A stretch of DNA of 64,000 bases from Gaeumannomyces sp. JS-464 (Eukaryota > Ascomycota > Sordariomycetes > Magnaporthales > Magnaporthaceae). Under the pieces are notes generated by a model that was not told the origin of the DNA, ran no database searches, and saw only the letters and a list, made by a program, of their open reading frames with translations. Each line of letters opens with the position of its first letter. Within the stretch, counting starts at the first letter, position 1. The stretch is from contig NGZR01000004.1 in the NCBI GenBank assembly GCA_002197995.1, forward strand, positions 1,674,001-1,738,000, given 5' to 3'. Positions 32,001-64,000 of this stretch are shown one piece after another. The position numbers were made by a program, and so were the translations under genes.

Positions 32001-33410
32001 AAATCGTCAAAGCAGCTCTTGAGATCCGCCCCGCGAGAGACAAGCCGGCACGGACCCCGCTCAGCTATGCTACCGAGATCCACACCGCGATTAATTCGAG
32101 AGACAAGTCGGAACGGACCCCGCTCAGCTATGCTGCCGAACATGGACATGCTGAGGTCGTGGAGGTGTTGACGAGGAGCGGGGCGCTCCCCCTGGCGGGA
32201 GATTCATCTGGTCACACACCTCTGACATACGCTGCTGCCGGAGGCCATGTTCAGGTGATGGAGATCTTGTTGAACCGTCATCATGTGACTATCCTCACGA
32301 AGGATACGAATGGACGCTCACCCTTACACTGGGCGGCAGCAAGCGGGAAGTTGAAAGCAGTCGAATGGTTGCTAGAAAAGGACACTAGTGGGGCGCTCCC
32401 TAGTGCAGAAGATTCGTCCCGTCGCACGCCTCTGTCATACGCTGCTGCCGGAGGCCATGTTGAGGTGATGGAGGTCTTGTTAAAGGATCGCCTTGCGACT
32501 ATCTTCATGAAGGACAAGAATGGACGCTCACCCTTACACTGGGCAGCAGCAAACGGGCAGTTGGACGCAGTCGACTGGCTGCCAGGGAAGGGGCGCCAAA
32601 ATGGAGGATCCCGAGGACGAGGGCCACACACCCTTGGCCGTTGCGCTCTTAAACAGCCAGACACGCACTGTGGAACTCCTTATACGTAAGGGAGCAAAGC
32701 CCGACATTCGCATCGGGGGACCGAGACGTGGCAGTGGGCGATCAAGAATGAGGAATGGGCATTTGCTCGATTCCTGCTGCAGCATTTGTTGCCGGGAAGG
32801 AGGGCTATCGCAGGGTTATTCGAAGGTGGCCGCTGTCCAGATCTAGGAAGGGAGACTGACTTTAAACCCGGAGTTACGGCGTTCGTGGTTGCCAAGGATG
32901 GCACGCTGGAACCCATTACAGCGGAAACAGTACGACTCGCTGCTGCTGGTCGATACAAAGTGGCAGTATGGATTCGCGAAATAGGAGAAAAGGGCCCAAC
33001 AAGGGCTTGGTTTCGATAACAGAATGGGGTTCAAAATAATCGGCTTGTTATTGAACCAGTTGGGAAAAGAAGTCAAAGTCACAGAAGAGGTCGTCAAGAC
33101 GGCCGCAAGGAATACCGAGTTTGGCGGGGAGGCGATGGAGCTGCTGTTTGATCAACGAGGCAAGGAGGTTAAGGTTACAGAAGAGGTCGTTAAGGCGGCT
33201 GCAGGGAATGGCTGGGTTGGCGCGAAAGTGATGAAGCTGCTGCTTGATCGACGAGGCAAGGAGGTTGAAGTTACAGAAGAGGTCGTTAAAGCGGCTGCAG
33301 GAAATCTGTTGTCTGGCGGGGACATGATGGAGCTGCTGCGTGATCGACGAGGCGGGGAGGTCGTTACAGAATATGTAATAACCGATGTAAGGTGCCACGA
33401 GGGTAGTTGA
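29040..33410 (+). pseudogene. Large ankyrin-repeat membrane protein gene, multiply frameshifted
   Basis: Starts MLQTSFFHLRLFLVACLVA (signal or membrane helix), then FANNLATDLAPLLALFGEQ and a second helix near APLGILTAVVSTIRV. Further conserved pieces occur in changing frames: FAPNPNLSFNIGI (about 29690), membrane segments (about 29745-29920 and 30160-30230), EGHELDWLALEM (about 30348-30380), and a domain around FAECFKESGLGSTQDAY (about 31430). At least six ankyrin repeats follow at about 31930-32690 (GHTPLTYAAAGGHVQVMEIL and similar). The 3' part (33024-33410) has 28-residue repeats with the core VTEEVVKAAAGN. This architecture belongs to a fungal-specific ankyrin family, possibly involved in allorecognition or innate-type responses (inference). 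Frame changes at about 29640, 29850, 29930, 30250, 31380 and 32700 make it a probable pseudogene. Confidence 0.7.
29442..29513 (+). repeat. 36-bp in-frame tandem duplication
   Basis: Units 29442-29477 and 29478-29513 encode IVHDRKAALPDK and IVHDCEAALPEN, a 12-residue duplication inside the ankyrin-type gene. Being a multiple of three, it did not break the frame. Confidence 0.85.
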
Positions 33411-34669: not shown

Positions 34670-37006
34670 GTAACCTGCGCGTCCGTTGCTCGTCAACACA
34701 ACCGACGGTGTTTCGCAAAGCTGCTCCCTCGGCGACCCTATCCTGTCGGCCCAGGGCACCTCGTCGTCCACGTACGGCAGCGCCTGCCACGGCGCGAGGC
34801 AGCGGTGCCCGCCGTCCAGGCTCCGGCCGGATAGGGCGTCGAGCATGGCGCCCATCCCCTCGACCCGCCTCAGCTACGGCCTGTTCCTGATTCTGTCCCG
34901 CACGTCCCTCTGCCTCGAGGAGTCCAGCAGCTGCGCGGCGATCGCCCCCGCGACCCCCGCCGAGTAGCTCGTCCCAGACAGCCGTTCCGGCACGTTGGGC
35001 AGGCACATGTCCGCGCCGATGGTCGCGAAGCTGTTCCCCGGCCTCCTGGGGCCGGGCGCGATGGGGTTGAACTCGACCAGCGCCCCCCCCCCCCCCCCCC
35101 CCCCCCCCGGCGTGGTGGCGAACATGCAGAACAGCTTGCCCGCGGAGTGCAGGTTCGCGGGGAACGTCACGGGGTTGAGGCCTCCGTGGTTGGAGGCCGC
35201 GGCGAACACCAGGACGCCCTTGTCGCCGGCGCGGGAGGTGGCGTCTCGTATGCGGTCGTGCTTCCGGTAGAAGCCCGAGGGGATCACGATGACGTCGACG
35301 TCCCAGGTTGAAAATGCGTAATCGATGGCCCGGGCCATGCGAACTGGGGCGTCGTCAGTGTATTCGCCGACTTTGTCCCAGACGCGGGCGACGTTGACTT
35401 CGGCAGCGGCGTAGACGAACTCGAGGAGGCGGCTCGCGTTTGTGCCGTGGTTGTCGCCTCCCCGTTTGCTGTCCTGGCACGAGCCATGGTTGTCATCGAC
35501 GAAGTCGCGGTACTCCTTCACGAAGTCTGTGCCCTGCAAGGTGGGGCAGACCCCGGTATCGATGATAGCAACTCGGGACGGGGGAGTTGATTCATCCCTG
35601 CTCTCGTCTTTGATCCTCAGGGCTTCGTTAAAAGTTCCAAGATGTTCGAACCACTTGCTCGAGGAGAATTTGCTCTCGCTTGGCAGTGTTACTAGATCAG
35701 ATCTGATGTCTGTAGCGTTTGCATTGCCTGAAAAAGGGCGCCATTTAGGCCTGCATCATGGCGGACATACCCTCGCTCTACGGCTTTCTCACGCCTGCGT
35801 CCGTTCTTCGGGATTGTATATAGCTGCTGGCTGCTTGTTGGATAGGGTTAGTGTGGGTGTAGATTCGGGCGGCGACGTTGGCATGCGCCAGTTGGGGTTT
35901 AAAGACTTACGGGGAGGGAGGGCGGTTGGTAGTGGAGGTTCTCGGGGCTTAGTCGCTGGTCCTTCTCGGGTTGTGTAAATTGCTGGGAAGAGGCTTCCGT
36001 CGACTTCAGTTCTTCCTTCCGTATGCCTCTCACATGTGGTGACTTGGCGTAAGTGCCTTCCCACAGAAGCTGGAGCGGTGCCACGACCTTTTCGTGAACA
36101 GCGTTAGAGCCGCAAGGTGATCCGCGTTGACTAGCGGAACACCCGAAGGATCGAGCCAGTCGCGGTCGAAAAAATCCTCGATACGGACCCCGAGTTCCAC
36201 CCCCATCATCATGACACCAAGAGCAAGCAGCTTCGGGAATTTGTGAGATAAAGATCCTCGCTGGTCGGCACCGTGGGGGGTTTTGTCGGCGAAATGAACC
36301 AGGAGCAAGGGATCATGCACGTAGATGCCACCAGCATCTTTGGTCAGGGGCCGCTGGAACGTGAAATGGACGGCCTCTTTGGTCCAGACCTGCTCCATCC
36401 AGCTCGAGTTATAGAACTGCCATACAGCCTTGGCCAGCTCGTAGCAAAGACGCAGCCTCGGCTTTGCTGTCAGCGGGGAGAAACGGAAAGCAGACTCGCC
36501 AGTGGTAGGCTGGGTGATCGCATGACGCACACCCGCTCCGGCTCCCTGGCGCCGCGTGGGATCAGAGATCCGGTGTTGATCTCGAGCTGCAGCCGACCAA
36601 GAGCTAGGCGTGAAATAAGGCCGCAGAAGTCGGAAGACGAGGGAAGATGCTCCGTCCGCGGCGGCTGCAACTTGGGCCGCCGTCGGCCATCCTGGCTCTT
36701 GTTTCGCGAGGTACCTGGACGATGGTGTCTTTCCACTGGCAAGTATCCGGTGTCTGGTCCTGGTGCGGATGGCCCAAAAACAATGGCCGCGTTACTATCG
36801 TTCTCCACCCTGCAGCCATCGTTGTTTAGCCTCAGATTTGCCGAGATCCCCGCCTGGTAGTCGTTCGGCTCGGCTTTGCATTTTATGTCTCCGAGATCGG
36901 GGTCGGCCGGCTCCTCGATCTGGGCCACGCTCTCCAAGGCTGTGTAGAGCCTGTCCTGGTTTTTTTTCTGTTGACGGGGCGGGAGAGGGATCCCGTCCGC
37001 TCCCAC
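34670..37006 (-). pseudogene. Subtilisin-like (S8) protease with N-terminal fungal domain, inactivated
   Basis: The N-terminal part (37006-36030) contains LCYELAKAVWQFYNSSWM, KFPKLLALGVMMMGVELGV and VNADHLAALTLF, typical of a fungal domain (DUF7580-like) found fused to subtilases. Then KWFEHLGTFNEALRI (about 35650) leads into the S8 domain: Asp in IDTG (35552-35563), His in GGDNHGTNAS (about 35447), oxyanion Asn in AASNHGG, Ser in LSGTSYSAG (about 34967). An in-frame TAG at 34874-34876 cuts off the conserved tail (LRRVEGMGAMLDALSG...). Frames also change around 36500 and 36060, and a 26-C run encodes poly-Gly at 35083-35108. All catalytic residues are present, but the gene as read is broken. 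Confidence 0.7.
35083..35108 (+). repeat. 26-C homopolymer inside protease gene
   Basis: A pure C run that reads as poly-Gly on the minus strand. The catalytic Asn and Ser on either side remain in one frame. Confidence 0.9.
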
Positions 37007-39167: not shown

Positions 39168-39639
39168 GGACGATGATGCTGAAAGAGAGAGAGAGAGAGT
39201 ATATTTAACGTCAGCTGATCGGGATCTACCAGTCCCTGCCTCCCAAGGGGCATATGACGTGCTAGCGCTACCTAAGCTACATACACCAGGCCATAGTGCT
39301 GCTATTACGGCGGCTAGCAAATTAAACCCGAAGGCACACGGAGGTCGGGCCGTATTCCGGCGCTCCTTGTTAGTAAGCGGGCAATCGGCAAAAGGGCGTA
39401 TAAAACGCCGGGGCGTTGTAGGCGCAGCGGTGGTAGTAGTGCGTTCGGCCGGCGGGTGTGCCGGGAAAAGGGGCGAGGCCAGGCGGGGGGTCCTTGGGAC
39501 CACCCCTGGGTCCGGCCGGGGTTGCGGGGAACCAACGAGCCTATTGTTAGTTCGGGTGGTATAAAAAAAAAGGTATAAATGCTAAAGGAAAAAGAAATAG
39601 GTAGTGTGCGGGTTGTTATGCTTTGTTATTATCGTCCGG

Positions 39640-42600
39640 CGATGGTAAAATAGTTGGTAGCTTTAACGAACAAGGTAAAAAGGAGGGGCTTTTATAGCAG
39701 CCGTTTCCAGTACCCGGGCCTATCGAAGGTCGGGGCGGGGTCCGCCACAGGCTATTTGTTTTCCTTTGCCTTAGCCAGCTTGCAAAATACAAGGTGGGAA
39801 GGGGATTTATTTTTCCCACAACGGCACGGGTTGTTATCCTCGTGCTTAAACTTTCGGTGGTACCAATCGAAATCCCCGTGGCTTGTACGTGCGGCTATTA
39901 GCCGTTATAGTACCTTCCGGTGCAGTTGCAAAGCGTCGGGTAAGCGTTGTGGTATCGGCGGGAGGCTTATAGCCTTGTATCGTTCCGGAAGGTTATTTTC
40001 GAACTAAGCGTTTCGTGCGTCCCGGGCCATTTTCCGGGCCAAAGCTTTAACGCCGGCCATTGTTAGTTTGGCATATCGGGGTACCGGGAGGGCCGTGCTA
40101 AGCTTTGCTTCGGCGTCGGCTTCCTCGTTTCCGGGAATTCCCATATAGCTCGGGGATTAACGAACGTGTACCCGGTATTTATCCATAAAGTAATGGATTT
40201 CCTTAAAAGCCTTTTACGAGCTATTAAAGGCCGTGCTTAAAAAGCCGTTAGCCGCCGAGGTGTTAAATGCAGTTGTAAAAGTTCCAAATAGCTTTGCGAA
40301 AGCCCATTCGGGCTTTTTCCGCTTCGCCGTCGAATATTTTAACAAAGTGCGCCAGCTTACCGTGCCCGGAAAGTTTGCGTTAGCCGGTTTGGTATATTAC
40401 CCAGCCGTATTCGACTGCTTCGTTTTCCGATTTGGACCGTCGCTATAAATTATAACGTTCGTAAAGGGAAGGGTGTTTAGCTACGCTATAAATGCTTTAA
40501 CGGCTGTTTGCTTTTCTTATATAACTACCGTAAATCCCGTGTATTTATAAAGGAGGTAAACCGGGCGAGTGCAAGCCGGAAGGAGTTTAGTTGTCTTTTG
40601 TAAGCAGGTCGTTTGCTTGCTAGGCAGGCCCGCTTTAAGCTTTTGGGCGTTAATCGTCGGCTTAACCGCTGCGGCTAAAAGGTAAGCTTTCAGGACCGTA
40701 TTAATGCGAGCCGCAAAACGGAAGCGGATTTGTTCCAAAAGCGCTTCGGCGCCCGGAATGCCGGATTCGTAATGCAAAGCTTTTATCGGAATGGTTTTCC
40801 AAACTGGCACTATTGCTTATAAGGACGTAATTAAAGCTTTATTAACCCGTTCGATTAGGTGGCTTTAGCGGATATATTATTATTATGCGGGTTTATATAA
40901 GTGTGGCTTAGTTTTGCCTTTATACCACACCTCGGCCCCGTATAATATTGTTAGGATAATAACCGTTATAACGGCTTTATATACCGATTACGCCGGTAAT
41001 CCTCCCACTAAATAGGTAAGCTTTCGGAGGTGGTTAGCGACGTTTAAGGCTTTTGCAACCCTATTATTAACGTGCGGCCCGAAATTAAGCCTTTGGTCGA
41101 AAAAAACGCTTAACCATCGTAAAATTGCCAGGCTTTTAAAGCTTTTTATAGCTTGTTATATGGTTAAGCTTTCGGCTTTAACCGTTAGGGTCGTAGGGTT
41201 TTTTTGCCTAGAAAAATGCATAAGTTCGCATTTTCCCGGGTCGAAAGCAACTTTGTTAACTTTACCCCAACGTAAGATTTCCGTTACCGTTGCCCCTGCT
41301 TTATAAAAGCACTTTTCCGGAAAGTTGCCCGTTACGCATATGCCTATATCGTCCGCGTATTCGTACCTTATTACTTTCGCTTTAGGTAGGATTTCGGCTA
41401 TATATAGCATAAACAAAACTGGTAAAGCCGGTAACCCTTAGGGTAACCCGCAGTTCGGGGAAAAAGGGTTGCTATAGCGTCCTTTAAACGCATTTAAATT
41501 AGCCTATCCTTTATAAACAATAATACTTAACGTATTAACGTTAAGTCCCATTTTTAATTTAACAGCTTTCGAAAGAGCTTCCGGCGGAGTACGGCGTCGA
41601 AAGCCCTTATACGTCCATTGTAACGAAAGTGGCGGCTTTATAGCTTTGGAATGCGCGTGCCACCTCGTGGGTTACGTATGCCGTTAAATCGGTGGCGGCT
41701 TTTTTAAAGGTCGCCCCGGCGTGTTACGAGGCTATTAACCCGTGTTATAGCGCGAGGAACGCCATTCGCGAAGCTATTAAACGTTTTAGCCCTTTTTTTA
41801 AGCACGAAAGCACGGCTATTAGGCGGTAAGATTTCGGATTCGTTATGTTTGATTTGTTTAGCTTTTGTAGCATAACCATTTCCGTTATACGAAAAAGGCT
41901 TAAATGGTGCCCGGCCTTTAAGCATGCTTCGAAAAAGGCCTTTACGTATTCCCCTATTGCCGGCTATGCCGCCGTTAGCAGCTTAACTAATAAGGAGTCG
42001 ATACCCGGGGCCGTGTTTGCCGTGCCAATAGTGAATTTTCCGCACTTTTTTAACGGGACGCAAGGGTTTTACGGGAGTTGTGCAATCCCTTAAGGGGCCC
42101 CCTGGCGTAACGGATTCTTTTATAAGTCGTTCTCCGCCGTAAACCTGCGGAGGATTTTACGGCCTAACGCTTTCGCTTTATCCTTTAGCGTTACGATAAC
42201 CTCCTCGTCGATATTTAACGGGGGGAGCCGTATAGCAGGCGTAAGTTTATGCCATTTTACAGCACGGTATAACGCTGCAAAGGAATCGATTTCTTTTAGC
42301 ACGTTAGCCCAATGCTGTTTTTTGGCTGCCCGGACCGCTGCTTTTAACGCGTGGGCTTCGGCCGTACCAAACCCGCCCCCCGCCGTGGCTTTCGCCAGGT
42401 CCCGCTGTATAATAGCGCACTTTTCGTTCCACCACAGTTAGCTTATACTTTTAGCTTTAGGCTTTTTACCGAAAGTGGCCAGCGCACTTTTTAGCAGGTT
42501 TATTAATACTTCGGTTGCTTTATCCAAGTAATTTGTAACGTGCGCGCTTGTAAATTCCGGTAAGGTGCCGGCCCTAAAACTCGTTAACGGCGGTAAGCTG

Positions 42601-49700: not shown

Positions 49701-50072
49701 AACGAATTATACGGGATAATAATTAGTTTTAATAATAAATTTGCATTAAATACAACGTTAAAACAAATTACATTTGTTTTAAATGCCGTACGAATTTTAA
49801 CTATCGTTTGCATAAATTTAAAGTTATTATACAAATGTTTAATTAAATTGGGAAATATAACGGAGAAAAAATTAATAATTAATATTATATTATTTCGAAA
49901 ATCGTACGAAAAGCGAGAAATTTCGGAAATCCGCTGGATTAACGGACGAAATAACCCAGTTAACGCTTTAATAAAAAAAAAGCTAAACGATGCTTTATTA
50001 ACCTTAGTTTTAACAAATCGTATAACGATTAAAGTAAAAGCGTATATTAAGCGGAGCGAAAAAGGAAAAAAG
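46730..50072 (+). mobile_element. Ty1/Copia pol remnant (Copia-1), 3' end cut at the CRESS array
   Basis: Strongly RIP-mutated. Landmarks in order: a pre-integrase region (about 47220-47540, NTIVRFNGITIPVIRK; RFYRLLKKAGY-like); an integrase core (CEFNYEIMVNIVHLKGKNAL at about 47520; WNAFYRCWIYVYI at about 47650); RT (INSLIARGIIRIISYDPILH at about 48545; the box MQTDDS at 49093-49107); and RNase H (KLFIFTDGLFANNKNLI at 49510; EKREISEIRWINGRNNP at about 49910). The Copia order integrase-RT-RNase H is clear. No LTR is identified; the left part (46730-47200) may be eroded gag. The end abuts the CRESS unit at 50072/50073. Confidence 0.8.
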
Positions 50073-50137
50073 TAATATTAAATTAGCCTTAATGTTCGCG
50101 CGGTGTTAAAAAAGCTTAAAAAAGGCAAAACACCGCG
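50073..50137 (+). promoter_or_regulatory. Origin-like region of CRESS unit 1
   Basis: TAATATTAA at 50073-50081 resembles the rolling-circle nick-site nonanucleotide of gemini- and genomoviruses. CGCGGTGTT (50099-50107) and its inverse AACACCGCG (50129-50137) follow as a 9-bp stem with a 21-nt loop. The upstream inverted copy found in unit 2 is missing here, because the unit begins at the nonanucleotide. Confidence 0.65.
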
Positions 50138-50442
50138 TTTCGATTTCCAACTAGTGTTTTAAGCAGCAAGTAACAAGCAATAATATGTTTTCCCCTTTTT
50201 AACTTTTCCAAGCGTCGTCCCCTCCCTTTTTTTCTTTTTTGCAATTATTACTATTGTTCGTACTATAAACGGTTTTCGATAACTAATAACATAACGCACA
50301 AATAATCCCGCTATTACTCGGTCCACTTTTTCCATTTTCCGTAAATTATTCCACTTCCTCGCTTGTGCAAAACGAAGCACTAACATTACCACTAAGCTAA
50401 TAGTTAAACGATTTGCAAGTCGTCGATCCCTGCGTCGATAAC

Positions 50443-51696
50443 ATACCATTCCGACTAGCGTCGAAGTTCGTTTTTCTAACGTACTCGAAGTGCACTTTCG
50501 AACCTGAAAAGTTAATCCAAAAGATAAAAAAGTTCAGCTTTTTCGATTATTACGCAGTTAAAAAGCGCTATAAGGACGGCACCCCGCATTACCACGTTAT
50601 TAGCAATTGGGATAAAAAAAAACATTAAAAACCCTAAGCATTTCGACATTAAAAAGTTCCACTTAAACATCGGGCGTATTAAGCAGCCGTTAATTGCTTA
50701 AAAATATTTTTATAAAAGAAAAGGCCAGTTAAAATACGTCGGCGGCATAATGGCTAAACTAAAAGGGTTGCGCAAAAACTTTAAGGCAAACTTTTAGTTT
50801 ACGGCTGTAAAAACATCCAATTGTACGGATTTTTTTTCCCGGTTTCGCGAAAAGGCTCCCCGCGAATTAATTTTGCATTACTTAAATGTAAAAGCCTACG
50901 CCGATAATACATTCCACATATTAATCCCGGAATATATTGGTTTAATATTGGACGGCGTATAAAACTTTTTTATAAAAATTACTAAATAAATGTAAAAACA
51001 CTTGCGAAAAAAATAAAGTACGCTATAACCCCCCCCCCCCCCCACCCCCCCCCCCCTACCTCCCCCTTTCGCTTATCCTTCGCTACGGGACCTTTTAAAA
51101 GGTAAAAACCCAGTTTTGACCGGTTAGTGGTGTTTTGCTAGGTCCGGTTTAAAGCTTAAACCCCCCACCCTAAAAAGGCCCCCGGGAGGCCCCTCGCTAA
51201 ACCTTTTATACATATAGCTAATTTTATTTATAAAACAACCCAAATTACTATGTTTATACGGCGTAATAAAACTGTTTAAAACAGTATGGGTTAAAAGTTT
51301 AAGCTTATATAGCTATATAAACGGGTGTTAAAATACCTCGCTATTTAATAATATTAAAAAATATTTGGTAATCGACAACGTGCTATTAAGTAATAGGGAT
51401 ATGTTTAAGCATTATAAGCAAATGCTAAAATGCTAAAGCAATTTTTTAATAACCGATAAGTACTTTAAAAAGGTGCATTTCGAAAGCTAAAAATTGTTTT
51501 GCATTTATTTAGCAAACGAAAACCCACGTGGGTATAATAAGGTAAACGCTACGTAATTAAACGGAAATTATATGTTTATGCAAATGCATAAACCATTGTT
51601 TATAAAAGCAAAGCTATATAGTACGCCAAATTTAAAAGTGGAAACGTTAAAAGCGTTTGTAAAACAGTTAAACGAGGAAAACGATAGTTTTTTTTA
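50443..51696 (+). pseudogene. CRESS-type Rep, copy 1 (HUH endonuclease + SF3 helicase)
   Basis: The presumed start codon is now ATA (50443). Endonuclease landmarks: motif I FLTYSKC (50473-50493), motif II HYHV (50587-50598), the GRS-like HFDIKKFHLNI (about 50638-50670) and motif III YFYK (about 50705-50716). Helicase landmarks: a Walker-A-like segment ending KTVW (about 51270) and Walker B YLVIDNV (51362-51382), then MFKHYKQML, DKYFKK and IYLANENPR (to about 51530). Length to the stop at 51694-51696 is about 418 codons, somewhat long for the family. An extra A in a nine-A run (about 50613-50621) breaks the frame relative to copy 2, a C-rich expansion lies at 51029-51056, and there are several stops. 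Rep proteins nick the origin and unwind DNA in rolling-circle replication. Confidence 0.82.
51029..51056 (+). repeat. C-rich homopolymer expansion between Rep domains, copy 1
   Basis: Fifteen or more C residues interrupted by one A. The equivalent site in copy 2 (about 61918-61923) has only a short C run, so the expansion is specific to this copy. Confidence 0.85.
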
Positions 51697-51737
51697 ATTA
51701 ATTAACTTGTTTTAGCTGCTGCTAATACAAAGTAAAA

Positions 51738-52330
51738 CTAATGTCCCGCACTTTTAATGCCGGCAAAAAGCGCTTATTCGCGTTTAAAATAATCGTAAAC
51801 GCTTTAAAAGTTAAAAAACTCGGCCGAAAGGAAAATTCCGCTTTAGGAAAACGAAAATTAACATTTACATTTATGCTAAAACGATTAGCAAAACGAATAA
51901 TAGCGACCTTTTACCTTTTAATTGTAAAAAACGGGATATAAAACAAAACAAGGAAATAAATATTATACCGAACTTTTAACGGTATTCGCCGATAAAAACC
52001 GTTTAAACTTATCCTAAAATACTTAACCTTTTAAATTAAAAAAACCCAAACTAAAATAGGACGAAATTAAAATGAATTTCGCATATTAAAATGTTAAACC
52101 TAATTTAATAAAATACGAAACCGGCGTTGCAAATCGATGGATTGGAAAAAAGTGGACCGAATATCCGACGAAAAAAAAAGGTTCCTAAATTTATTAAAAT
52201 AACGATCGGCGGTAAATAAAACCCGCGTTAATTCGAAATCCACGGGATTAAAAACCGCATTATTTAACTTAAATGCGATATTTCGCACGTTATTAAAAAA
52301 ATTGGCATAATGCTAAACATTAGCTGAAAA
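51738..52330 (+). other. Second conserved block of CRESS unit, possible ORF of unknown function
   Basis: Downstream of Rep, the same sequence recurs in unit 2 at about 62720-63310. The longest open part is 51741-51941 (66 codons, very Lys-rich: FNAGKKRLFAFKIIVNALKV). Stops interrupt it afterwards. No capsid or other viral motif is recognised. Whether it encoded a protein, and on which strand, is unresolved. Confidence 0.35.
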
Positions 52331-52455
52331 ATTCGTAATAAACCGAAAAGTAATAACCCGCATATTGCAAAACTGTAAAACATAAATAAATATATTAATT
52401 TTAATACTTTTATATACTACCGTATTTATATTAAACCTACGATTAATACTTCGGT

Positions 52456-52690
52456 TGTTAATCCACGTAATTTAGCGCGTGCATCCAAAAAAAGCCCACG
52501 CCTCGTAAAGCCGCAAGCCTACGGGCCGTGCGCTCCCACGAGCTTACAAAAGGGAATTTTGTAATCCCTTTCCTGTAATTAAATTCTTACATAGATATGC
52601 ATTACTACAAACACCAGTACCAAATTTATAAATCTTTGTTATATCCTTTTGGAAATTTTCGTGCCTATAAAAGTAACATTCCTACCAATA
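52456..52690 (+). repeat. 5' LTR of Copia-2
   Basis: Pairs over its full 235 bp with 59783-60017, differing mostly by C/T and G/A. Contains a small AAGGGA...TCCCTT palindrome at about 52551-52570. Confidence 0.88.
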
Positions 52691-53015
52691 CTAATTAGTG
52701 TTGCTTAAAAAAGCAACACAAATAGCAAGGTAAAGGATTTAAACGTTTAATACCTTTTTCGAAAAAGCGATTAGGTTAACGTAAAAGTTTAAAAGTAAAG
52801 AAATCGAATTCCACTGCTCGGTAACGCGTTATACGGGAGTTAATTACGCATTAAAAGCACCTTTTTATTGCAAGCGATTGGACCTTTATTTATGAGATTT
52901 GAACAAACGTAAAAAGGGCGTTACGTGATCCTTTTAAGCACTTTCCTGCGTTAAGCGACTGGATTTTTAAATCGATTACCCAAACGATATCGCTCGTTAC
53001 CCCCCCATTAACAAC

Positions 53016-54900
53016 ATGTCCGATTCCCCGGAATAACAAACGGCAAAAGAGCTTAGCAATAAGCAAAAAATGATTATAAAAAGCGCATTAGTAATATTCG
53101 ACCTCCTTAAATCCCTCGCAAAGAACATCGACATGCCTTTTTTATTAAATCTATTATACAATTTCGAAGGATTACCAAACCAGGCTTCCATCGCTCGCTG
53201 GAACGTATGGATGCTTAAAATATTGCTTTTTTACAGTAACACATATAGCGACAATTTTTTAAGCGACGTATTCGAAAATTACGCGGGGTGGGAAGTAAAA
53301 CATTTCGACGACCTCGATTTACGGATTACCCGCGTTTTTAAAAAGCATTTAAAAGATTATAAAATCCCCGTACCCGGTTTACCAAAAGGAAAGCTTAGCG
53401 AAAGGATTATGCAAGTTATGCGATGGGAGTTAATCCTTAAAATAACAACTTTTACCATAGGATTACACTTTTTTGCTTTCCAAAATCGTATAACCCTTTT
53501 AAAGGCCAATCCCCCGATTACTGTTATAAATGCCTTTAAAATAATGCGACCCGCCATTTCGTTAGCGAAGCCTACCGCCGAGCAATAAACTAGCGGAAAT
53601 GAGATTTAAAGATCGTTAAAACGTTAAACCAGGGCTTTATTTCGTTTTTATCGAAACTTTTTTACCCTTTTTATGGATAAAGTCCTAAAGCCTTCCATTC
53701 TTTTTTTTATTAAAAATTACCGTTTTTAAAAGCGTACCGATTTTTTAAGCAATTAAACCACCGCTTTTATACCCCTTGCAACCCCCTTTCCTACCCGAAA
53801 CCGCACCGATCCCTAAGGCAACCAATTTTTAGCTTTAACGAACATTTAACCCACGCATATATAAGGGTTTTATTATAAGCAGTATATAAAGTAAAGGGAT
53901 CGTGGAAAAACCATTTAACCGATCGATAGATTACAGGATATGGAAATATTACGTCCTCGATATAAAACCCCGGCGTTTGCGAAGTTATTATACAAATAAC
54001 TTCTTTTTAAAAAAGTGCTTAACGCCGCCGTCGATAGGAGCTTAATAAAAGCATTTTAAAGCGCGTGGGATAAAAAGTACAGCTATTCCGGTAATTTATA
54101 CGATATTTTAAACGATAAGATTTTGTTTTTCGCAACCATATACGAAACCCTCGAAATACCCCTTTTATAGCTCCATGCGATTTTTCCTTAAGCATTTTAA
54201 AGCAAAGCAAAGCAATGGTATACCCGGTATATCGGGTATAGCTTTACTTTCCGAAAGATTTATATAATTCTTAAAGCGCATTTCGATACCGAGGTTAACC
54301 GATTACTGTACTATATAAATTAAAGCTCGATTACTTTCCAAATAATCCGTTTAAAAATCGTTAACGTAAATAAATCCAATATGGAGGTTTTGCAAGCTTT
54401 TTTAAATAAGTTGCAAAATTGCTAACGCGCTTTCGGACCTTTTTATTAAAACGAAAACCAGCTAATTGCGAGCATTTTAAAAGTAATCCAAAACGTGTCG
54501 AAGTTTAAAACCGTTTTTATAAATCCCAATAGGACTTTTAAAAGCCTATTTTCCCAGTTTAAAAGCAAAATGCGAGTGGAAAAAAACGCACGACCCCCCG
54601 GCATTTATTTTATAAAACGGAAAATTAAAAATTATAAAGATTGTAAAAAGGATAATAAAAGTTAAAACCAAGCATATAAACCCAAATCCTTTTAACTAAG
54701 CCCCCGTTTACGCCCATATATACGCGGTTGTTGGATTTGCAAAAAGCCGGATTGCAAATCGACACGCCACTTTTTTAAAGAATAACGACAATTTAAAAAG
54801 CAGTGGAAAGCATAAAAAAAGGCAAAAAACAAACCACGCAAAGGGTATACCTAATTCCTCGTATTAATGGAGCCCGAAAGCACCGATAAGGAGGAATAGC
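53016..54900 (+). pseudogene. Copia-2 Gag
   Basis: Starts MSDSPE then TAA (former CAA) then QTAKELSNKQK, continuing open as a 172-codon stretch at 53070-53588 (NLLYNFEGLPNQASIARWNV). A zinc-knuckle-like CWICKKPDCKSTRH at 54729-54770 is the C-X2-C-X5-C-X4-H type found in fungal Copia Gags. Gag forms the particle and packages RNA. Stops and frame changes after 53590 inactivate it. Confidence 0.7.
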
Positions 54901-55269
54901 TATCCTTTAATTTTAATAATTAAAAAATTAATGAAAAGGAGGATTATAAGAGCAGTTACTTTATAACCTCCGTTACGGCCGCGTATTTAATTAAAAAGGC
55001 TTTTACTTACCGCATTTATAAGCGTTAGGATGCGAGATTTGGCAAGCTTTACTTTTATGTTTTTACGGATTAAGTATTGGTTTAATATAAAATTTAAAGT
55101 ATTAAGTAATGGTAAGGGATTTTTCCGGATATAAGTATAGCAATAACCTTTACGGCCGGAAAGGATTAAGTTTACGCATTTTAACGTTATAAGCCAAATC
55201 TCGTCGTTAATATAAACGGGCATAAAAAACGCGTAATTTTCGGATTAGGAAAAGCTGTTTCCAGCATCG

Positions 55270-58200
55270 GAAAAATCACTGTTCCGATTTCGATCGGCCA
55301 AATCACGTTTTTCGTGGTTCCAACTTCGACCTTTTTTCTACTGTGCTTTGCAAATATAAATGCATTACACGTTTACTTAAATAACACGCGCAATAAGCTT
55401 ATAAAAAACGACGGTACGCGCGTCCCGATTATAAAAAGGCACGGCCACCCCTGGTTTTTTTTCGACAACGTTACCCACGTTACGACGGTAATTAGTTTTA
55501 TAACGAAAATAAAAATCGCGGAAGCAGTTTTCCTTACGAAAGCTAAGCTAAAGCGTATGTATAAGCGCTTTAGGCACCCATTTGTTAATAAATTTTGGAA
55601 CGTTTTAAAGCGTGCAAAGCATAAAGCTAATCGTAACGCTTTCGCAATAATTAACCGAATGTGCCATTTTTGTTAAAAAAAGGGTTTTGCATTATAACGC
55701 TTTCGATTTAAATTTTAAAACGATATTAACTTTAATTACGAAATAATTATAAACGTGTTTTATATCGATTACAAACCAGTTTTTTACGTAATCGATACGA
55801 GCATAACTTTTAATATTGCAGCGCTTTTTAAAAATATATCGGTAAAAAAAACGTGGGAAGCTTTTAAACGGTGCTGGATCGACGTTTATTTAAAGCCCTT
55901 TAACGTAATTTTTTACGATACCGGTATTAACTTCGCCGCGAGCGAATTTTAAACGAAAGCAAAGCTTTTTAGGATTATTTGTAAGCAGGTCCTAATCGAA
56001 GCGCATTAGTTTATTAGCAAGATTAAAAGATATTACGCTTTTTTACGACGGGCTTTTAATATTATTCGATAAAAGTGCTTAACTATGCACCTCGAATCGG
56101 TGCTTTAAGGAGCAGTAAAAGCCGTAAACGATACGGCCGGCCCCGACGGACTTATCTTTACATTGCTCGTTTTTAAAGCAATGCTTTAAATTAATAACGA
56201 ATCGCTACCTTTATAAACCCAGGTATAAAAAGCCGCTGCAATTAGGAAAGCTATGGCAAAAATCCGGATTTTACACGATAAGCGACGTATGTAAAAAGCA
56301 TTAGCTGCACGTAACGGACCGAACATAAAACGGGTGTTTCCGAGCTTTTTAGCTTTAAAAAGCGAGGTTTTGGTATTCCGGGAAAAGGACGAATGGTAAG
56401 GCCCGTATAAGGTTTTATCCATAATAAATACGTTAATTACGGTGGAAACGATTAACGGTAACGCGACTTTTAAAAGCACGGTGGTTAAACCCTATTATAA
56501 AGCAAAAGAACTTATTATGCAAAAATCCGAAAAGCAGCCAGCACTTTTTAAGTACTTTAAACCCGAACAGCCAAAACGCCGAGGGAAACCCCCGAAAAAA
56601 AAGGCCGTAAAACAGCAAAATAAAAAGCTTTAAAATTAAACAGCCATTTTGTTTAAAATTACGGTATTACTTAAAATCCTTAACAAATAAAGTCGCTTTT
56701 ATAAAAACGCATAACTAATAGTTATAGTAAAATAAAGCTTTCGGCAAGCGTATACGACGTTTTTAAGCGTTAAAAAGCACTAATCCTACCAGTTAGCGAT
56801 CCGATTTAAATAAAAAGGCAAAATTACAGCTCCCGGTCCACCATTTAAACAGTTAACTTAATAAAAACTGGACGCATTTATCGGCGTTAAAATGATTAAG
56901 CCGATTACTAGTAAAACATTTAACGGAACTACGATTTTTGGATTACGAATTGTAAACGAGGTAAAAGGGCAAACCTTAAAGCCTTTTAAAAAATCGAAAT
57001 TCGTGGCTATAGGATATAACGACGAGGAAAAACATAATATTTTTACGCAATTTCCCACAATTATAAAATGCAGCTAACGATTAATCCTAGCGATCGTATT
57101 ATCGCTTACGCTTATAAAGTTTAGTTTAAAATTCGAAATATTAGCTAAACGTATACCCAATTGGAATTAAAACTATAAAAAACGTTTTCCTGCGCTTATT
57201 TAAAGAGTTATTAACATGGGTTAAACCGGGCACGTTATTTAAAATAATTAAGCCTTTTTACGGGATCGCGGAATTAGGTTTGCATTGGTTCGTTATTTAT
57301 TAAAAGCATTATAAAAAGCGTTTAAATTGCCAAACGTCGAGCTACGATCCTTATTTGCTTATTTCGGAAAGCGGATAAAGCTTTAGGATCGTAGGCATGC
57401 AAATAAACGATACCTTAAATTTTAAAAATCCGGACTTTTTAATAAAGGAAAAATTAGCGATCCAAGAAGTAAGCTTTCGTGCAAACCGAAATCGATTTTT
57501 AAGCCGGGAAACGAAACCGATTTTAACGGGTGCAAAATTTTAATAGGAAATTATAAGCTCGAAATTTAACAAAAAAAACAAGGTAAAAAGCTCGAGCTAA
57601 TAAAAACCGATTTAAAAAGCTTAAGCTATAAATATATCGTTTAAAAAGCTCGAAGCGCATATATTAATTCCATATGCTAACCGGAAGCCGCATTCGATTA
57701 TTTCGTAACGGCGCAAGCTAAAAACCCGGGATAAAAGGACGTGGTTAAGCTAAATAAAAAATTAAATAGCAAATTAATAACGCTTAAAAAGGGTTAAAAT
57801 ACGTTCCATTGGATTTAAAAAAAACCAACCTTTACGTTTTCGTAAACGGATTATTCGCAAATAATCCAAACCTAAATTTACAAATCGGGTTTGTAATTGT
57901 ATTAGGCAATAAAAAATCCGACGATTAAAAAACCAGCTTTTAATTAATCGGGAATATTTTGCATTGGACGTTAATTAAATGCAAAAGGGTTATAAAAAGC
58001 GTTTTCGCAAGTAAAATTTACGAAATGGTTAGCGGGTTTAATGCAACCTACGTTTTTAATTTAACGCTCGTAACGATTTTTAAAAAGCTAAATTAAAAAG
58101 CTTTAAAATTAATAATTTATACCGATAGCTTTTCGCTGTATTAATGCTTCGTATAATTGGGCATAATAGCGGAAAAAAGGCTTATAATTAATATTATAGC

Positions 58201-58420
58201 ATTTAAAAAATCCTACGAAAGCCGCGAAATTAACGAAATCCGTTAAATCGCAGGATTAAATAATCCGGCAAACGCGATAATTAAAAATTAACTAAATAAG
58301 GTTTTAAAAGATTTGGTTATAAGCAATACGATAACGGTACGAATTAAAAGTTAGGTAAAGCGCGAAAAAAATAATAAAAAAAAGCGAAAAAAGGCGGTTA
58401 AAATCGATTTGTTATAACTT
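55270..58420 (+). pseudogene. Copia-2 Pol (protease, integrase, RT, RNase H)
   Basis: Protease-end and pre-integrase region: ANINALHVYLNNTRNKLI and VPIIKRHGHPWF (55350-55460). Integrase: YKPVFYVIDTSITFNIAALF and WEAFKRCWIDVYLKPFNVIF (55770-55920). The integrase C-terminal basic tail is at 56442-56633 (RRGKPPKKKAV). RT begins TTIFGLRIVNEVKG (56930) and ends near 57600, followed by an RNase H region with VNGLFANNPNLN-like residues (about 57840) and EINEIR (about 58225). The order matches Copia-1. TAA stops interrupt all domains. Confidence 0.75.
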
Positions 58421-58429
58421 AAAAATGGC

Positions 58430-59782
58430 TAACGATGTGATTAAAAAAAACGAAATTACTAAAACGCCAAAACAACCGGAAAACGATCCCACGAACGATT
58501 ATTTTAAGCTTTAGGAAAAACTTCCACTATTGCCGGACATATTACCAGCTTATTTGTTAATATTACTAGCACTTTTATCCTTTTTTCCCTTTTTAACCAT
58601 CTTTTCGTTTTTATCCTCGTTATTATTAAAAGCTTTAAATAGGCTGTCTTTTGCTTTTAAAAACGCCGTATCGAATATACGCTAAGCGGCAACGCGGCCC
58701 GCCGTTTTCCGATTAGCAGCATTTTTTAATAAAATTAGCGTTAACTTTACCGGCTTATTCCTCTTTTTAAAAAGGATTATGCATTTAATAGTAATGCGCC
58801 ATTTCGCGAAATCCTAAAAATAGCGAAAGCACGGTTAACAAAGCACGAAAACAGCCAAATAAAAAATTAGCTATTATATTTTGTTAATAGTAGTTTTACG
58901 AAAGTATTTAATTATAAACTTTTTGGTTAAAACTATTGCGATTTTAAAATTACCGGTCGTTAGCGCAAAAAATTAACAAATTAAAGCTTAAAAGATTACT
59001 TACACCGGTGCACGAATAATAAAAGCATAGGATTAGTAACGGTTGCCGACCGGCTCGGTGTTAAAGCACCTAATTTTATTAAATTTGCCGGCTAAAAGAA
59101 AGTTAAAGCAATTTAAGCATAAAAACGATTTTTGTTTGCCTTTTGCAAAGCGCGGCGAGTAAAGGATTTGCCTTTTCCCTTTTTAGCACGAGTTTTTTTA
59201 ACGCCATTATTTTAAAACCGTTTTAACGCTAACTTAACCTTTTTTAACGGATTTGCCTTTGTTAGCTCTTTTAAAACGAGTGGATATTATCGCGGTAATT
59301 AGTCGAATAGTAAAATAGTAAAGCAAAAATCGCAAGTAAGCAAACAAGCAGCGGGGATATCGATATTTATGGTTGTAAAAATTAAGTTCCAAAATTATAC
59401 GACGATTAAGGCCTACGGTTTTTAAATATCCCAAGCTTTTAAGTTATCCTTCGATTTGCTTTTTCCTATTACACCGATTAGCACGCACACGGCTTAATAA
59501 ATCTTTATTAAGTTTATATTATTGCTATTATGCGCATTTAATCCGGCATTACCTAATTTTACGAGCGTTTAACCAAACATTGCCCTACTTTTTATTATTC
59601 CTATTTACAATCCTTATTTACAATTTTTACCCGATATCCAGCATAATTCTTTTGCCTTTTTTTTCCTTTGGTTTTTAAAGCAGGTTACCAAATCCGGATT
59701 CCTTTATTATTAGTATTATAAAATTCCGGGATTTGGAAAACAAGCATTTACCGATGCACGCGTTTAAAGAAAGAATTGCCAG
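58430..59782. other. Copia-2 3' region, no clear gene
   Basis: AT-rich and stop-rich on both strands. A minus-strand stretch (about 59210-58960) reads LVLKREKANPLLAALCKRQT, then HRAGRQPLLIL, and could be a degraded antisense ORF, but I cannot assign it. Confidence 0.35.
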
Positions 59783-60017
59783 TGTTAATCCACGTAATTT
59801 AACGCGTGCATCCAAAAAAGGCCCACGCTTTATAAAGCCGCAAGCTTACGGGCCGTGCGCTCCCACGAGCTTATAAAAGGGGATTTTGTAATCCCCTTTT
59901 TATAACTAAATTCCTATATAAATATGCATTATTACAAACATTAATACCAGATTTATAAATTTTTGTTATATCCTTTTGGAAATTTCCGTGCTTACAAAAA
60001 TAACATTCCTACTAACA
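59783..60017 (+). repeat. 3' LTR of Copia-2
   Basis: 235 bp, TGTTAATCC to TACTAACA, followed by the target duplication ACGGT. Confidence 0.88.
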
Positions 60018-60022
60018 ACGGT

Positions 60023-60946
60023 AAAATTTAATACCGGGTAAAAAAAACCCGCTATTAAATACGTTAACGCGCATTTTATATTAAACGAATTCCGAAACCC
60101 TATTAATTAAAACATTAATAATATAACGTTTAAAATTAATAACGGCTTTTATTATTAACGTAAAACGGTTAAAACCACGATCGTTACGGAAATAACGCTG
60201 GTAACCTTTTTAAAAGCCGAAAACCATAATGGCGGTAATAACGGCGGAAAGTGGGAATAGTATATTAAATGTTAAAAAAAAGTGGAAATAGCATTAAAAT
60301 AAAAATGCGGCTGGTTAAAAAAGTGCAAAAGCGTCGGAAAAAAATATAACGAACGGCGGTTATATTTAATAGCGCTAGCGACGCTAACGAGGAAATCGAG
60401 TTAAAAAACGAACGGTGCCGTATAAAAAGCGATTAAAGTAAAGCGACGATACCGAATTGGTCGTTTATAACGAAATTGTAAATATATTAAAAAAAAAGGT
60501 AATTTTATAACCCGTAGCAAATAAAACGCCCTTTTTTATAAGCGTTAAAAAAAACGGTCGATATAATAAAAACGTAATAATAATAAGAAAATCCACGTTT
60601 AATTAAATGCGCGTATTACGATTAAATAAATAAATAATTATTTCGCGTAAAATATTAATGCAATAATAAAAGGAAATGTTTAAACGACCGATTTTAAAAA
60701 GCACTTTAAAAGGTTATATAAAGCTGTAATATGCCAATTACATTTAATTATGTTATAATTTATACAAAGATATATGCATCGCGTAATTACAATTAAATGC
60801 GGTTTTATTTAACTATTGCGAAAATTAAACTATTATATAATAATGTTTTGCAAATTACGAAAATAATAAAACAATTTTTTGCAAAATACCAATTAATTTT
60901 AATAAACCCCGCATAATAACTTATACCATTACGAAAAAAATATTAA
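60023..60946 (+). other. CRESS unit 1, block B (no protein recognised)
   Basis: Repeated at 63441-64000. A reading frame around 60240-60400 (KVEIALK, KCGWLKKCKSVGKKYNERRL) is mirrored in unit 2 (about 63700-63790) and may once have been coding. No coat-protein-like sequence is seen. The rest is AT-rich with many stops. Confidence 0.4.
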
Positions 60947-61030
60947 AACACCGCGGATTAAAACTGTAATATTAAATTAGCTTTAATGTTCGCGCGGTGT
61001 TAAAAAGCATAAAAAGGATAAAACACCGCG
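60947..61030 (+). promoter_or_regulatory. Origin-like region of CRESS unit 2
   Basis: AACACCGCG (60947-60955), TAATATTAA (60967-60975), CGCGGTGTT (60993-61001) and AACACCGCG (61022-61030) occur within 84 bp. The first and second 9-mers can pair to present the nonanucleotide in a 37-nt loop, and the second and third can pair as well. Iterons flanking a nonanucleotide directly upstream of Rep are the expected layout of a CRESS-DNA replication origin. Confidence 0.72.
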
Positions 61031-61332
61031 TTCCGATTTTCCAATAATGTTTTAAGCATTAAAGCAAATAATTATTATAAACTCTTTTTTTTTAAATTTT
61101 CGGGGTTTCGTTTTTTCCCTTTTTGTTTTTCCCACTTTTACCGTCGTTATTTTTTAAAAACGCCATATTCGATTAACACGACGCACAGTTCGCTAAATAA
61201 TTAACATTTTTTCTATTATCCTTATTATTAATAAATTATTTACTTTTTTCGCTTATGTAAAACGAAGCACTAACGGCATTAATAAGCTAACAATTAAACG
61301 ACTTACAAGTCGTCGATTTTTGCATCGGTAAT

Positions 61333-62686
61333 ATATTATTCCGACTTGCATTAAAGTCGGTTTTCCTAACGTACCCGAAATGCATTTTCGAACTTAAAAA
61401 GCTAATTTAAAAGATAAAAAAGTTTAGCTTTTTCGATTATTACGCCGTTTAAAAGCGTTATAAGGACGGCATTTTACATTACCACGTTATCGGCAATTAA
61501 GATAAAAAAAACATTAAAAATCCCAAACACTTCGATATTAAGCGGTTTTACCCGAACATTAAGCGGATTAAACAGCCGTTAGCTGCTTAAAAATACTTTT
61601 ATAAAAGGAAAGGCTAGTTAAAATACGTTAGCGGTATAATAACTAAGTTAAAAAGGCTACGCAAAAACCTTAAAGCAAACTTTTGGTTTGCAATTGTAAA
61701 AACATTTAACCGTACGGATTTTTTTTCCAAATTCCGCGAAAAGGCCCCCCGCGAATTAATTTTACATTACACAAGTGTAAAAGCTTACACCGATAACACA
61801 TTCCGCATATTAATTTTAAAATATGTTGGTTTAATATTAAACGGTATGTGGGACCTCCTTGTAAAAATTACCGAATGGATGTAAAAAAACTTGCGAAAAA
61901 AACAAAGTACGACATAACCCCCCTTTTCGCTCTTTTTCGCTACGGGACCTTTTAAAAGGTAAAAACCTAGTTTTTAACCATTTTTTATAGTGTTTTATTA
62001 AGTCCGGTTTACGGTTTAAACCCCCCACTTTAAAAAGGCTTTTAAAAGGCCTTTTGCTGGACTTTTTATATACGTGGCTAATTTATTTTTTATCGATAAA
62101 ACGTTTTAAATCACTGTGTTTATATAAGGTAATAAAGCTATTTAAAACAATATAAGCTAAAAGCTTAAACTTACATAACTATATAAGTGGCTATTAAAAT
62201 TCCTTACTATTTAACAGCATTAAAAAATATTTGGTAATCGATAACGTGCTATTAAGCGATAAAAATATGCTTAAGCATTATAAGCAAATGCTAAAATGCT
62301 AAAACAATTTTTTAATAACCGATAAGTATTTTAAAAAGGTGCATTTCGAAAGCTAAAAATTGCTTTGCATTTATTTAGCAAACGAAGACTTATATAAGTA
62401 TAATAGGGTAAACGCTACGTAATTAAACGGAAATTGGGTGTTTATTACAGTGCAATCGTTTTTTAATAAGAACTTCGCACGGTTATAGCCCCAGCTATAA
62501 CAACGTTCTATTTTTGCCTTCGTGGTACACGTGGATTAACTTTAGTTTTATCTCGTAACAGTGTTTATGCAAATGCATAAATTACTATTTGTAAAAGCAA
62601 AGCTATTAACACGCCGAATTTAAAAGTAAAAGCGTTAAAAGCATTTATAAAAACAATTAAATAAGGAAAACGATAGCTTTTTTTAA
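61333..62686 (+). pseudogene. CRESS-type Rep, copy 2
   Basis: Same gene as at 50443-51696. Motif I FLTYPKC (61363-61383), motif II HYHV (61477-61488) and GRS-like HFDIKRFYPNI (about 61528-61560) are in one frame here, because the A run has eight A. A Walker-A-like LYKVIKLFKTI (62120-62152) and Walker B YLVIDNV (62228-62248) follow, then LKHYKQML, DKYFKK and IYLANED. The Walker A Gly-Lys-Thr is degraded to Phe-Lys-Thr in both copies. Several TAA/TAG stops sit where Gln or Trp would be expected. A 115-bp insertion interrupts the C-terminal part at 62446-62560. Confidence 0.82.
62438..62568. mobile_element. 115-bp MITE-like insertion with 8-bp TSD in Rep copy 2
   Basis: Absent from copy 1 at the equivalent site. 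GTGTTTAT occurs at 62438-62445 and 62561-62568, bracketing 62446-62560. The insert contains a palindrome GTTATAGC-CCCA-GCTATAAC near its centre and shows little RIP. An 8-bp duplication suggests a hAT-type non-autonomous element, but terminal inverted repeats are weak. Confidence 0.55.
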
Positions 62687-64000
62687 TTAACTTGCTTTAA
62701 CTACCGCTAATATAATGTAAAACTAATATCCCGCATTTTTAATGCCGGTAAAAAGCGTTTATTCGCATTTAAAATAATCGTAAACGCTTTAAAAGTCGAA
62801 AAACTCGGCTAAAAGGAAAACTTTACTTTAAAAAAACGAAAATTAACGTTTATATTTATATTAAGCCGATTAGCAAAACGAACGGCAGCAACCTTTTACC
62901 TTTCCACCGTAAAAAACGGAATTTAAAACAAAATAAAGAAATAAATATTATATTAAACTTTCGATAGCATCCGCCGATAAAAAACCGTTTAATTTTATTT
63001 CGAAATATTTAACCTTTTAAATTAAAAAACTTAAACCGAAATAAAACGAAATTAAAAAGAATTTTGCACGTTAAAATGTTAAACTTAATTTAACAAAATA
63101 CGAAACTAACGTTAAAAATCGATAAATTAAAAAAAATAAACCGAATATTTAACGAAAAAAAAAAGGTTTTTAAATTTATTAAAATAACGATTAGCAATAA
63201 ATAAAACCCGCGTTAATTCGAAATCCACGGAATTAAAAACCGCATTATTTAATCCAAATGCGATATTTCGCACGTTATTAAAAAAATTAGCATAATGTTA
63301 TATATTAGCCGAAAAATCCGTAATAAGCCGAAAAGTAATAACCCGCATATTGCAAAACCGTAAAACATAAATAAATATATTAATTTTAATGCTTTTATAT
63401 ATTACTGTATTTATATTAAACTTACGATTAATACTACGGCAAAGTTTAATACCGGGCAAAAAAAAACCCGTTATTAAATACGTTAAAACGCATTTTATAT
63501 TAAACGGGTTCCGAAGCCCTATTAACTAAAACACTAATAATATAGCGTTTAAAATTAATAACAGCTTTTATTATTAACGTAAAACGGTTAAAACCGCGAC
63601 CGTTACGAAAATAACGCCGATAGCTTCCTCGAAAACCGAAAACCATAATAGCGGTAATAACGGTAAAAAGTAGGAATAATGCACCGAATGTTAAAAAAAA
63701 ATGGAAATAGCATTAAAGTAAAAATGCGGCTGGTTAAAAAAATGCCGGAATGTTAAAAAAGGATATAACGGACGGCGGTTATATTTAATAGCGCTAACGA
63801 CGCTAACGAAAAATCGAGCTAAAAAACGAACGGTGTTATATAAAAGCGATTAAGGTAAAAGCGACGATACCGAATTAATCGCTTATAACGAAATTGTAAA
63901 TACATTAAAAAAAGGGTAATTTTGCAACTCGTAGCAAATAAAGCACCCTTTTTTATAAGCGTTAAAAAAGACGGTTAATATGATAAAAACGCGATAATAA

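Follow-up and report, generated by a model that had tools for sequence, protein, structure and literature searches.

Dispersed geminivirus-type Rep elements with ends at the origin nick site in the genome of Gaeumannomyces sp. JS-464

How does a replication gene of the geminivirus kind come to lie twice, head to tail, in a fungal chromosome? The locus in question is the right end of a stretch of 64,000 nucleotides of Gaeumannomyces sp. JS-464 (the window; C29:1674001-1738000, in a genome of 53.0 Mb and 34 contigs). It holds two direct copies of a unit of about 3.3 kb with a gene for a replication initiator (Rep), both heavily changed by repeat-induced point mutation (RIP). The original prediction took them for a circular replicon that was integrated as a concatemer and then mutated by RIP. 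Here, we compare the window copies with their relatives in the same genome, describe the ends and the targets of the insertions, and weigh the explanations for their spread.

A dispersed family with ends in the origin loop

A genome-wide DNA search gave at least 84 matching stretches (the best 40 of 69 candidates were scored). Ends were counted in the stretches that were fetched and could be aligned. This resulted in 25 left and 18 right ends on eight contigs (C1, C12, C23, C29, C30, C31, C32, and C33); four of each belong to tandem junctions, so that 21 of the left and 14 of the right ends are outer ones. Eight insertions are single units with both ends read, and they measure 3284-3317 bp, or 3526 bp when a solo long terminal repeat (LTR) lies inside. 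By sequence comparison, the window dimer is one member of a dispersed family of ~3.3-kb Rep elements in a RIP-mutated fungal genome. The concatemer is not supported as the main story: the family is dispersed, eight of its insertions are single units, and the units of the dimers are not simple duplicates (see below).

Each end of the element falls within the loop of an origin hairpin that the insertion has split. The outer left nonamer reads GTAATATTA in 17 of 21 cases and the outer right one GTAAYATTA in 12 of 14. At the four tandem junctions, the units meet at a single nonamer between inverted arms, which is GTAATATTA in three of them and GTAATTTTA in the other. On the strand opposite Rep, GTAATATTA reads TAATATTAC, and this nonanucleotide is thus present at three of the four tandem junctions. 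Nicking of the geminivirus type occurs after TAATATT. The same TAATATTAC is given as the nonanucleotide of the geminivirus origin loop in the available part of PMC5014472. The linked origin expected from the original prediction is found at the window junction, whose DNA folds at -11.6 kcal/mol (z -4.05; none of 200 shuffles as good).

The two kinds of outer ends differ at the fifth base of GTAA[Y]ATTA, which is C at 0 of 21 left ends versus 5 of 14 right ends (Fisher p 0.006). Because RIP converts C to T and never the reverse, the C of the right ends would be original and derived from the target. Its restriction to the right would therefore mean that the bases at left ends were contributed by the element and those at right ends by the target, which places the exchange point within the shared TGTAA. 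GT^AA, which is complementary to TAATATT^AC, is part of this stretch, and the inferred breakpoints fit a nick at that position.

Unoccupied copies of the targets

We searched for unoccupied copies of the target repeats with the rejoined flanks of insertions. The copies found for four insertions (L015, L016, L017, and L022) carry GTAAYAYTA in 14 of 17 cases (1/1, 5/6, 4/5, and 4/5, respectively). The nonamer is GTAATATTA in five of the six copies of the L016 target repeat and in four of the five of L022, GTAATACTA in four of the five of L017, and CTAGTTGTAACATTAGG in L049, the one unoccupied copy for L015. No target duplication is present at the rejoined sites of these four insertions. With both strands counted, GTAAYAYTA would turn up by chance ~3 times in 64 kb (shuffle mean 3.0, against a window total of 7 matches).

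The match to the unoccupied copies extends to both flanks by BLASTN for L016 (6/6), L017 (5/5), and L022 (5/5), and the junction of the rejoined L022 site is spanned by every one of the 40 matches listed (the best 40 of 428 candidates). For L015, the right flank matches L049 by BLASTN (E 1.8e-17) and the left flank gives no BLASTN match; when transitions are tolerated, the left flank also matches (z 8.6, 0/300 shuffles). Eight control flanks were compared in this transition-tolerant way: the related L033 reached z 17 and the other seven ranged from -2.3 to 1.5.

The left-flank repeats of L033 and L011 have the look of LTR ends (GTAACA) with differing sequence behind them, and a TTA or CTA next to GTAACA would therefore complete a target. 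At L042/L043 (C1:10516171-10521115), the flanks are the target repeats of two other insertions, that of L017 on the left and that of L016 on the right; this locus is a possible recombination product of two insertions.

Rep and the virion-sense frame

Profile searches place the Rep frame in Gemini_AL1 (PF00799) and not in a transposase family, in agreement with the predicted geminivirus/genomovirus-like type. Both window copies score over the cut-off (50449-50631, 29.1 bits, one stop; 61339-61605, 32.1 bits, four stops), as do 14 of 16 places in the genome itself versus 0 of 14 prokaryotic control genomes. Stop-free Rep pieces match at E 1.3e-6 and 2.7e-7, and the stop-free N-terminal piece of L016 (107 aa) matches the HUH domains of geminivirus-type Reps in the PDB (7kik, 6we0, and 6q1m; E ~1e-6 to 2e-6). 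The endonuclease motifs stand in order in copy 1: motif I, motif II, a GRS-like stretch, and YxxK. Across 20 copies, motif I is VFLTYPKC, VFLTYSKC, or VFLTYLKC in 15, the HYH histidines are kept in 15 and 16, and the YxxK stretch is readable under a strict pattern in 7.

The helicase motifs that had been predicted are recovered in part. Walker B and motif C are seen by eye (Asp in 13/19 copies and Asn in 19/19, respectively), and Walker A reads GxxxLFKT, with Phe (TTT) at the Gly position of GxxxxGKT in 19 of 19 readable copies; Pfam recognises no helicase domain in the pieces scanned. Two other models were tried and rejected. The 51 matches of PF00910 in the genome are at other loci and have an ordinary P-loop look, and this model also matches 14 of 14 prokaryotic controls. 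For the central domain, Gemini_AL1_M reached only E 0.088 and ranked below unrelated families.

Transversion columns concentrate at third codon positions in exon 1 (20 of 37, versus 9 and 8; p 0.027) and in exon 2 (10 of 15, versus 2 and 3; p 0.022). This modest signal suggests that the progenitors, including those of the Phe variant, kept Rep under selection. Between the central and helicase parts there is a probable intron, indicated by the signals GTACGC and CTAA(Y) and by the raised transversion rate of the putative intron stretch (935-1130; 39/196 columns).

The strand opposite Rep has a putative, fast-evolving second open reading frame (ORF) in the virion sense; L020 is the copy in which it stays free of stops for longest, up to 193 aa. 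When L010b and L017 are compared with the other ten copies, Rep differs by 1.3-4.7% transversions and the virion-sense region by ~24-26%. The diverged products still align in pieces (27/94 identical, E 3e-12 in one comparison), which suggests a coding, exchangeable module. Codon periodicity alone is weak for this ORF (p 0.009-0.017 without correction, and 0.14 for the right part), and the codon-position pattern between its subfamilies is partly circular because the alignments were chosen by protein similarity. No known family matched the ORF, in Pfam or among PDB structures. No capsid was recognised, the Gemini_coat search, run without a positive control, being empty; a suspected resemblance to capsids could not be supported, and we make no claim of it.

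Protein searches with pieces of the Rep N-terminal part, the Rep central part, and the virion-sense ORF found no relatives outside the genome at E <= 0.01, and viral contigs, scanned with the N-terminal piece of Rep, yielded none either. A Walker-A DNA pattern matched 16 contigs, which we discarded: at ~6 kb or more, they are too long for the usual virus with circular, Rep-encoding single-stranded (CRESS) DNA.

Layout of the window dimer

Seven direct-repeat families (D1-D7; 80-92% identity; spacings 10.87-10.99 kb, 7.33 kb, and 3.42 kb) link the two window copies. Together with the Gemini_AL1 match in each, they confirm the predicted pair of ~3.3-kb Rep copies in the same orientation. The array is a dimer of two units, with copy 1 at 50074-60967 and copy 2 at 60968-64382 (C29:1738382), and past the end of copy 2, the 10 kb of contig that follow the window (L009) contain no third unit. 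The 10.9-kb spacing corresponds to 3.3 kb plus a nested LTR retrotransposon of 7.56 kb, flanked by a target-site duplication (TSD). The features are as follows.

50072-50080, + strand: left outer boundary of the dimer, reading GTAATATTA, with a putative breakpoint at GT^AATATTA (50073/50074), which is TAATATT^AC on the - strand
50074-52455, + strand: left part of copy 1 (left arm of the origin, Rep, and start of the second half), closing with the TSD TCGGT at 52451-52455
50443-50625, + strand: HUH domain of copy 1 Rep, a stop-free piece of 61 aa with motifs I (FLTYSKC) and II (PHYHVI); Gemini_AL1 31 bits, E 2.7e-7
50645-50745, + strand: GRS-like region FHLNIGRIKQ and motif III KYFYKRKG of copy 1 Rep, with a stop in between
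51018-51233, + strand: probable spliceosomal intron of copy 1 Rep (GTACGC ... CTAAT ...), containing a C-tract; putative, with boundaries inferred by eye
51218-51530, + strand: helicase region of copy 1 Rep, at the level of motifs: Walker A-like GVIKLFKT, Walker B LVIDN, and the motif C region
52456-60017, + strand: nested LTR retrotransposon splitting copy 1, with LTRs of 235 bp (52456-52690 and 59783-60017) and a 5-bp TSD (TCGGT/ACGGT)
60018-60967, + strand: right part of copy 1, closing with the right arm of the origin
60947-61001, + strand: origin hairpin at the junction of copies 1 and 2; stem AACACCGCG/CGCGGTGTT, loop GTAATATTA at 60966-60974, which is TAATATTAC on the - strand
60968-64000 in the window, + strand: copy 2, which continues to 64382
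61339-61605, + strand: HUH domain of copy 2 Rep (Gemini_AL1 32.1 bits, four stops inside)
62446-62560, + strand: short repeat of 115 bp inserted in copy 2
63301-63525, - strand: piece of the putative virion-sense ORF of copy 2 (unknown protein, opposite Rep)

The two units differ throughout and bear different insertions, which speaks against a duplicate made by the assembly. The LTRs of the nested retrotransposon start with TGTTAATCC, and the right one ends in CTAACA. Its LTR also occurs inside the element copies L012 and L022 and in the flanks of L017 and L020, and the 115-bp repeat of copy 2 stands alone at no fewer than nine other places in the genome.

The predicted RIP is evident in the composite index, which is 0.68 and 0.75 in the window copies versus 0.05 in the gene-rich middle of the window. 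An alignment of 20 copies has 634 C/T columns and 622 A/G columns, and variable C sites make up 219 of 230 before T, 198 of 218 before A, 101 of 140 before C, and 116 of 184 before G. The decay of C to T is hence most marked where T or A follows and least marked where G does, which is not a CpA-only pattern. CpG is over-represented in the window copies (observed/expected 1.97 and 2.63), and the C-tract in the probable intron of copy 1 (51028-51066) is unusual for a RIP-mutated, AT-rich region.

Elsewhere in the window, there are five unoccupied nonamers of the GTAAYAYTA type, at 12173, 12884, 48228, 49568, and 58558 (- strand). The gene-rich part has duplicated segments, namely inverted-repeat arms at 26361-27456 and 39199-40265 (699, 170, and 121 nt at 83-92%); a further segment, at 17975-18166, is related to them. 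Two ORFs were named by eye: an ankyrin-repeat-like one (457 aa, 31316-32689) and a subtilase-like one (293 aa, 34874-35755).

Relatedness of the units within dimers

We measured relatedness from transversions only, setting transitions aside as RIP, in three of the four dimers (L010, L012, and that of the window), leaving out the fourth (junction at C30:1763824). The two L010 units belong to different module types and are 20.5% transversions apart in the middle. In L012, each unit is nearer to other loci than to its partner, at a distance that an LTR insertion within a single 200-bp stretch partly inflates (an alignment effect). Between the window units, differences concentrate in the first 400 bases, which hold 36 of the 55 transversions of the first 1480. 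Units that are not simple duplicates in any of the three dimers favour successive insertion at a resident origin. In L010 and L012, such insertion at the resident nonanucleotide would explain the units and plain integration of a concatemer would not, recombination being the alternative.

Discussion

The family most probably spread by Rep-catalysed nick-and-join at chromosomal nonanucleotides, that is, as a site-specific rolling-circle transposon built on a Rep of the geminivirus/genomovirus type. A complete element would be the DNA of one circle, opened at TAATATT^AC in the hairpin loop on the strand opposite Rep and joined, without target duplication, into a like nonanucleotide of the chromosome, TARTRTTAC. 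Rep itself would nick the origin, stay on the 5' end, cleave the chromosomal nonanucleotide, and transfer the strand, presumably by way of a single-strand intermediate. Host repair would complete the insertion, and RIP would later have broken the copies. Candidate nonanucleotides for cleavage and joining by the HUH domain of the family Rep are TAATATTAC and TAATGTTAC. Because each insertion would leave the nonanucleotide at both of its ends, a further element could insert there, so that head-to-tail dimers would form from units arriving one by one. We lean, with less assurance, towards the broader view that the family forms its own class of rolling-circle transposons in eukaryotes. It would descend from a Rep replicon of the geminivirus/genomovirus type, its Rep would use genomic copies of the viral nonanucleotide as targets, and heterodimers would grow at the targets recreated at both ends of each insertion.

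Several observations weigh against the nick-and-join transposon. Every copy read is broken, and all readable Walker A motifs have the Phe described above. Among the outer ends, the nonamer deviates at 4 of 21 on the left and at 2 of 14 on the right, and its exact form is missing in 3 of 17 unoccupied copies (L061, L067, and L088). L048 and L056, which have only the left-flank repeat in common with L033, read GTAACACCT and GTAATATTT; they lack the full nonamer because their right flanks differ. The count of empty sites leaves out L011, L019, and L042/43, for which none could be shown because the two flanks are different repeats, and the search was made outside L010, L020, and the window dimer. 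The chance rate of GTAAYAYTA given above is a whole-window figure and would be higher in AT-rich repeats. RIP, by changing C to T, could have altered the bases of the left ends, which weakens the argument from asymmetry. The other three tandem junctions, whose hairpins are eroded, fold at z -2.2, -1.5, and -0.5 (6, 18, and 59 of 200 shuffles as good). Finally, beyond base 400 the window units are close relatives, the intron region excepted, and this dimer may be a concatemer that underwent exchange near its left end.

The strongest competitor, to which we give an appreciable but clearly smaller chance, is that these are endogenous viral elements, left by repeated germline integration of an exogenous genomovirus-like mycovirus (or plasmid) without a transposon life cycle. 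The chemistry of insertion would be that of the transposon, and the difference would lie in the nature of the replicon. The CRESS-like gene order, with Rep opposite a possible virion-sense ORF, agrees with a virus, as do the selection on Rep and the separate histories of Rep and the virion-sense module (1.3-4.7% versus ~24-26% transversions), which resemble those of recombining viruses. Against it stand the outer ends that a single genome holds (21 left and 14 right), the failure to recognise a capsid family (subject to the uncontrolled Gemini_coat search), and the length of the unit, since genomovirus genomes are smaller than 3.3 kb.

A circle integrated once as a concatemer and then silenced by RIP would account for the single nonanucleotide that head-to-tail units have in common at their junction, and for window copies 1 and 2 being nearest relatives in the middle (1.41% transversions) and the right arm (0.95%). 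Dispersal, with 21 outer left ends, makes it weak as the sole origin; the units of L010 and L012 are nearer to other loci (with the L012 figures inflated by the LTR), and those of the window differ mainly in their first 400 bases. We regard it as unlikely. Less probable still is a classical DNA transposon with terminal inverted repeats (TIRs) and a DDE transposase, or its nonautonomous derivative, into which a viral rep was taken up; such an origin has been proposed for the element of Tuber. The split origin arms do resemble imperfect TIRs, but these inverted arms form the origin hairpin where units adjoin. Repeats of 8 bp do stand at both sides of the insert, but we rejected a TSD as their cause, as the left and right 8-mers differ in the direction that nick-and-join expects. 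No transposase family was found in 33 scans, which covered part of the stop-free pieces of several copies, some pieces twice; these copies are broken, and their short pieces could hide one.

A fungal geminivirus-like transposon is already known, the one described from Tuber melanosporum (Liu et al. 2011, PMC3198968). By the available account, it resembles the present family in being dispersed and multi-copy, with a geminivirus/SsHADV-1-like Rep, TIRs, and no obvious TSD; its copies are >95% identical, and the reconstructed unit has two transposase ORFs and TIRs of 37 bp. The words nonanucleotide and stem-loop are absent from the main text of that paper. Unlike the Tuber element, the present family has no recognised transposase, and its ends are the origin nick site. 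With Genomoviridae/Geminiviridae, among whose relatives Rep introns occur, it shares the Gemini_AL1 HUH domain, TAATATTAC in the hairpin loop, Rep on the opposite strand, and the probable Rep intron; it departs from them in having no recognised capsid, 3.3 kb of length, Phe in Walker A, and the form of a chromosomal multi-copy family.

Helitrons, which carry their own Rep-Hel, are likewise HUH rolling-circle elements with precise insertion and no TSD. They insert between A and T (PMC10741241, in the part available), whereas the Rep described here matches Gemini_AL1 and its target is a nonamer, with the breakpoint inferred at T^A of GTAA. Replitrons, as described in the same source, are similar in being HUH elements of 0.9-4 kb with short terminal direct repeats. 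Their description gives TSDs of 2-8 bp, no TIRs, an HUH domain distantly related to that of Helitrons, and an occurrence in green algae and seedless plants; compared on this description, the present family differs in having no TSD at the four rejoined sites. GRD in tobacco and EGV1 in yam, which are endogenous repeats of geminiviral origin (PMC5014472), also consist of tandem units of rep and origin in a host chromosome. These repeats are clustered, and precise nick-site insertions with empty sites are not described in the available part of that paper. A literature search over titles, opening parts of abstracts, and the best-ranked part of the results found no report of insertion at nonanucleotide targets.

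Self-driven integration by the Rep of circular single-stranded DNA viruses is usually stated as likely and not as shown, for example in the available part of PMC7493932 (citing Krupovic and Forterre 2015). With joints at the nick site and nonanucleotide targets (21 left and 14 right outer ends; four insertions with unoccupied targets), the hypothesis of integration by Rep becomes directly testable. The family would provide a concrete link between single-stranded DNA viruses and rolling-circle transposons, and chromosomal nonanucleotides could predict the landing places of such replicons.

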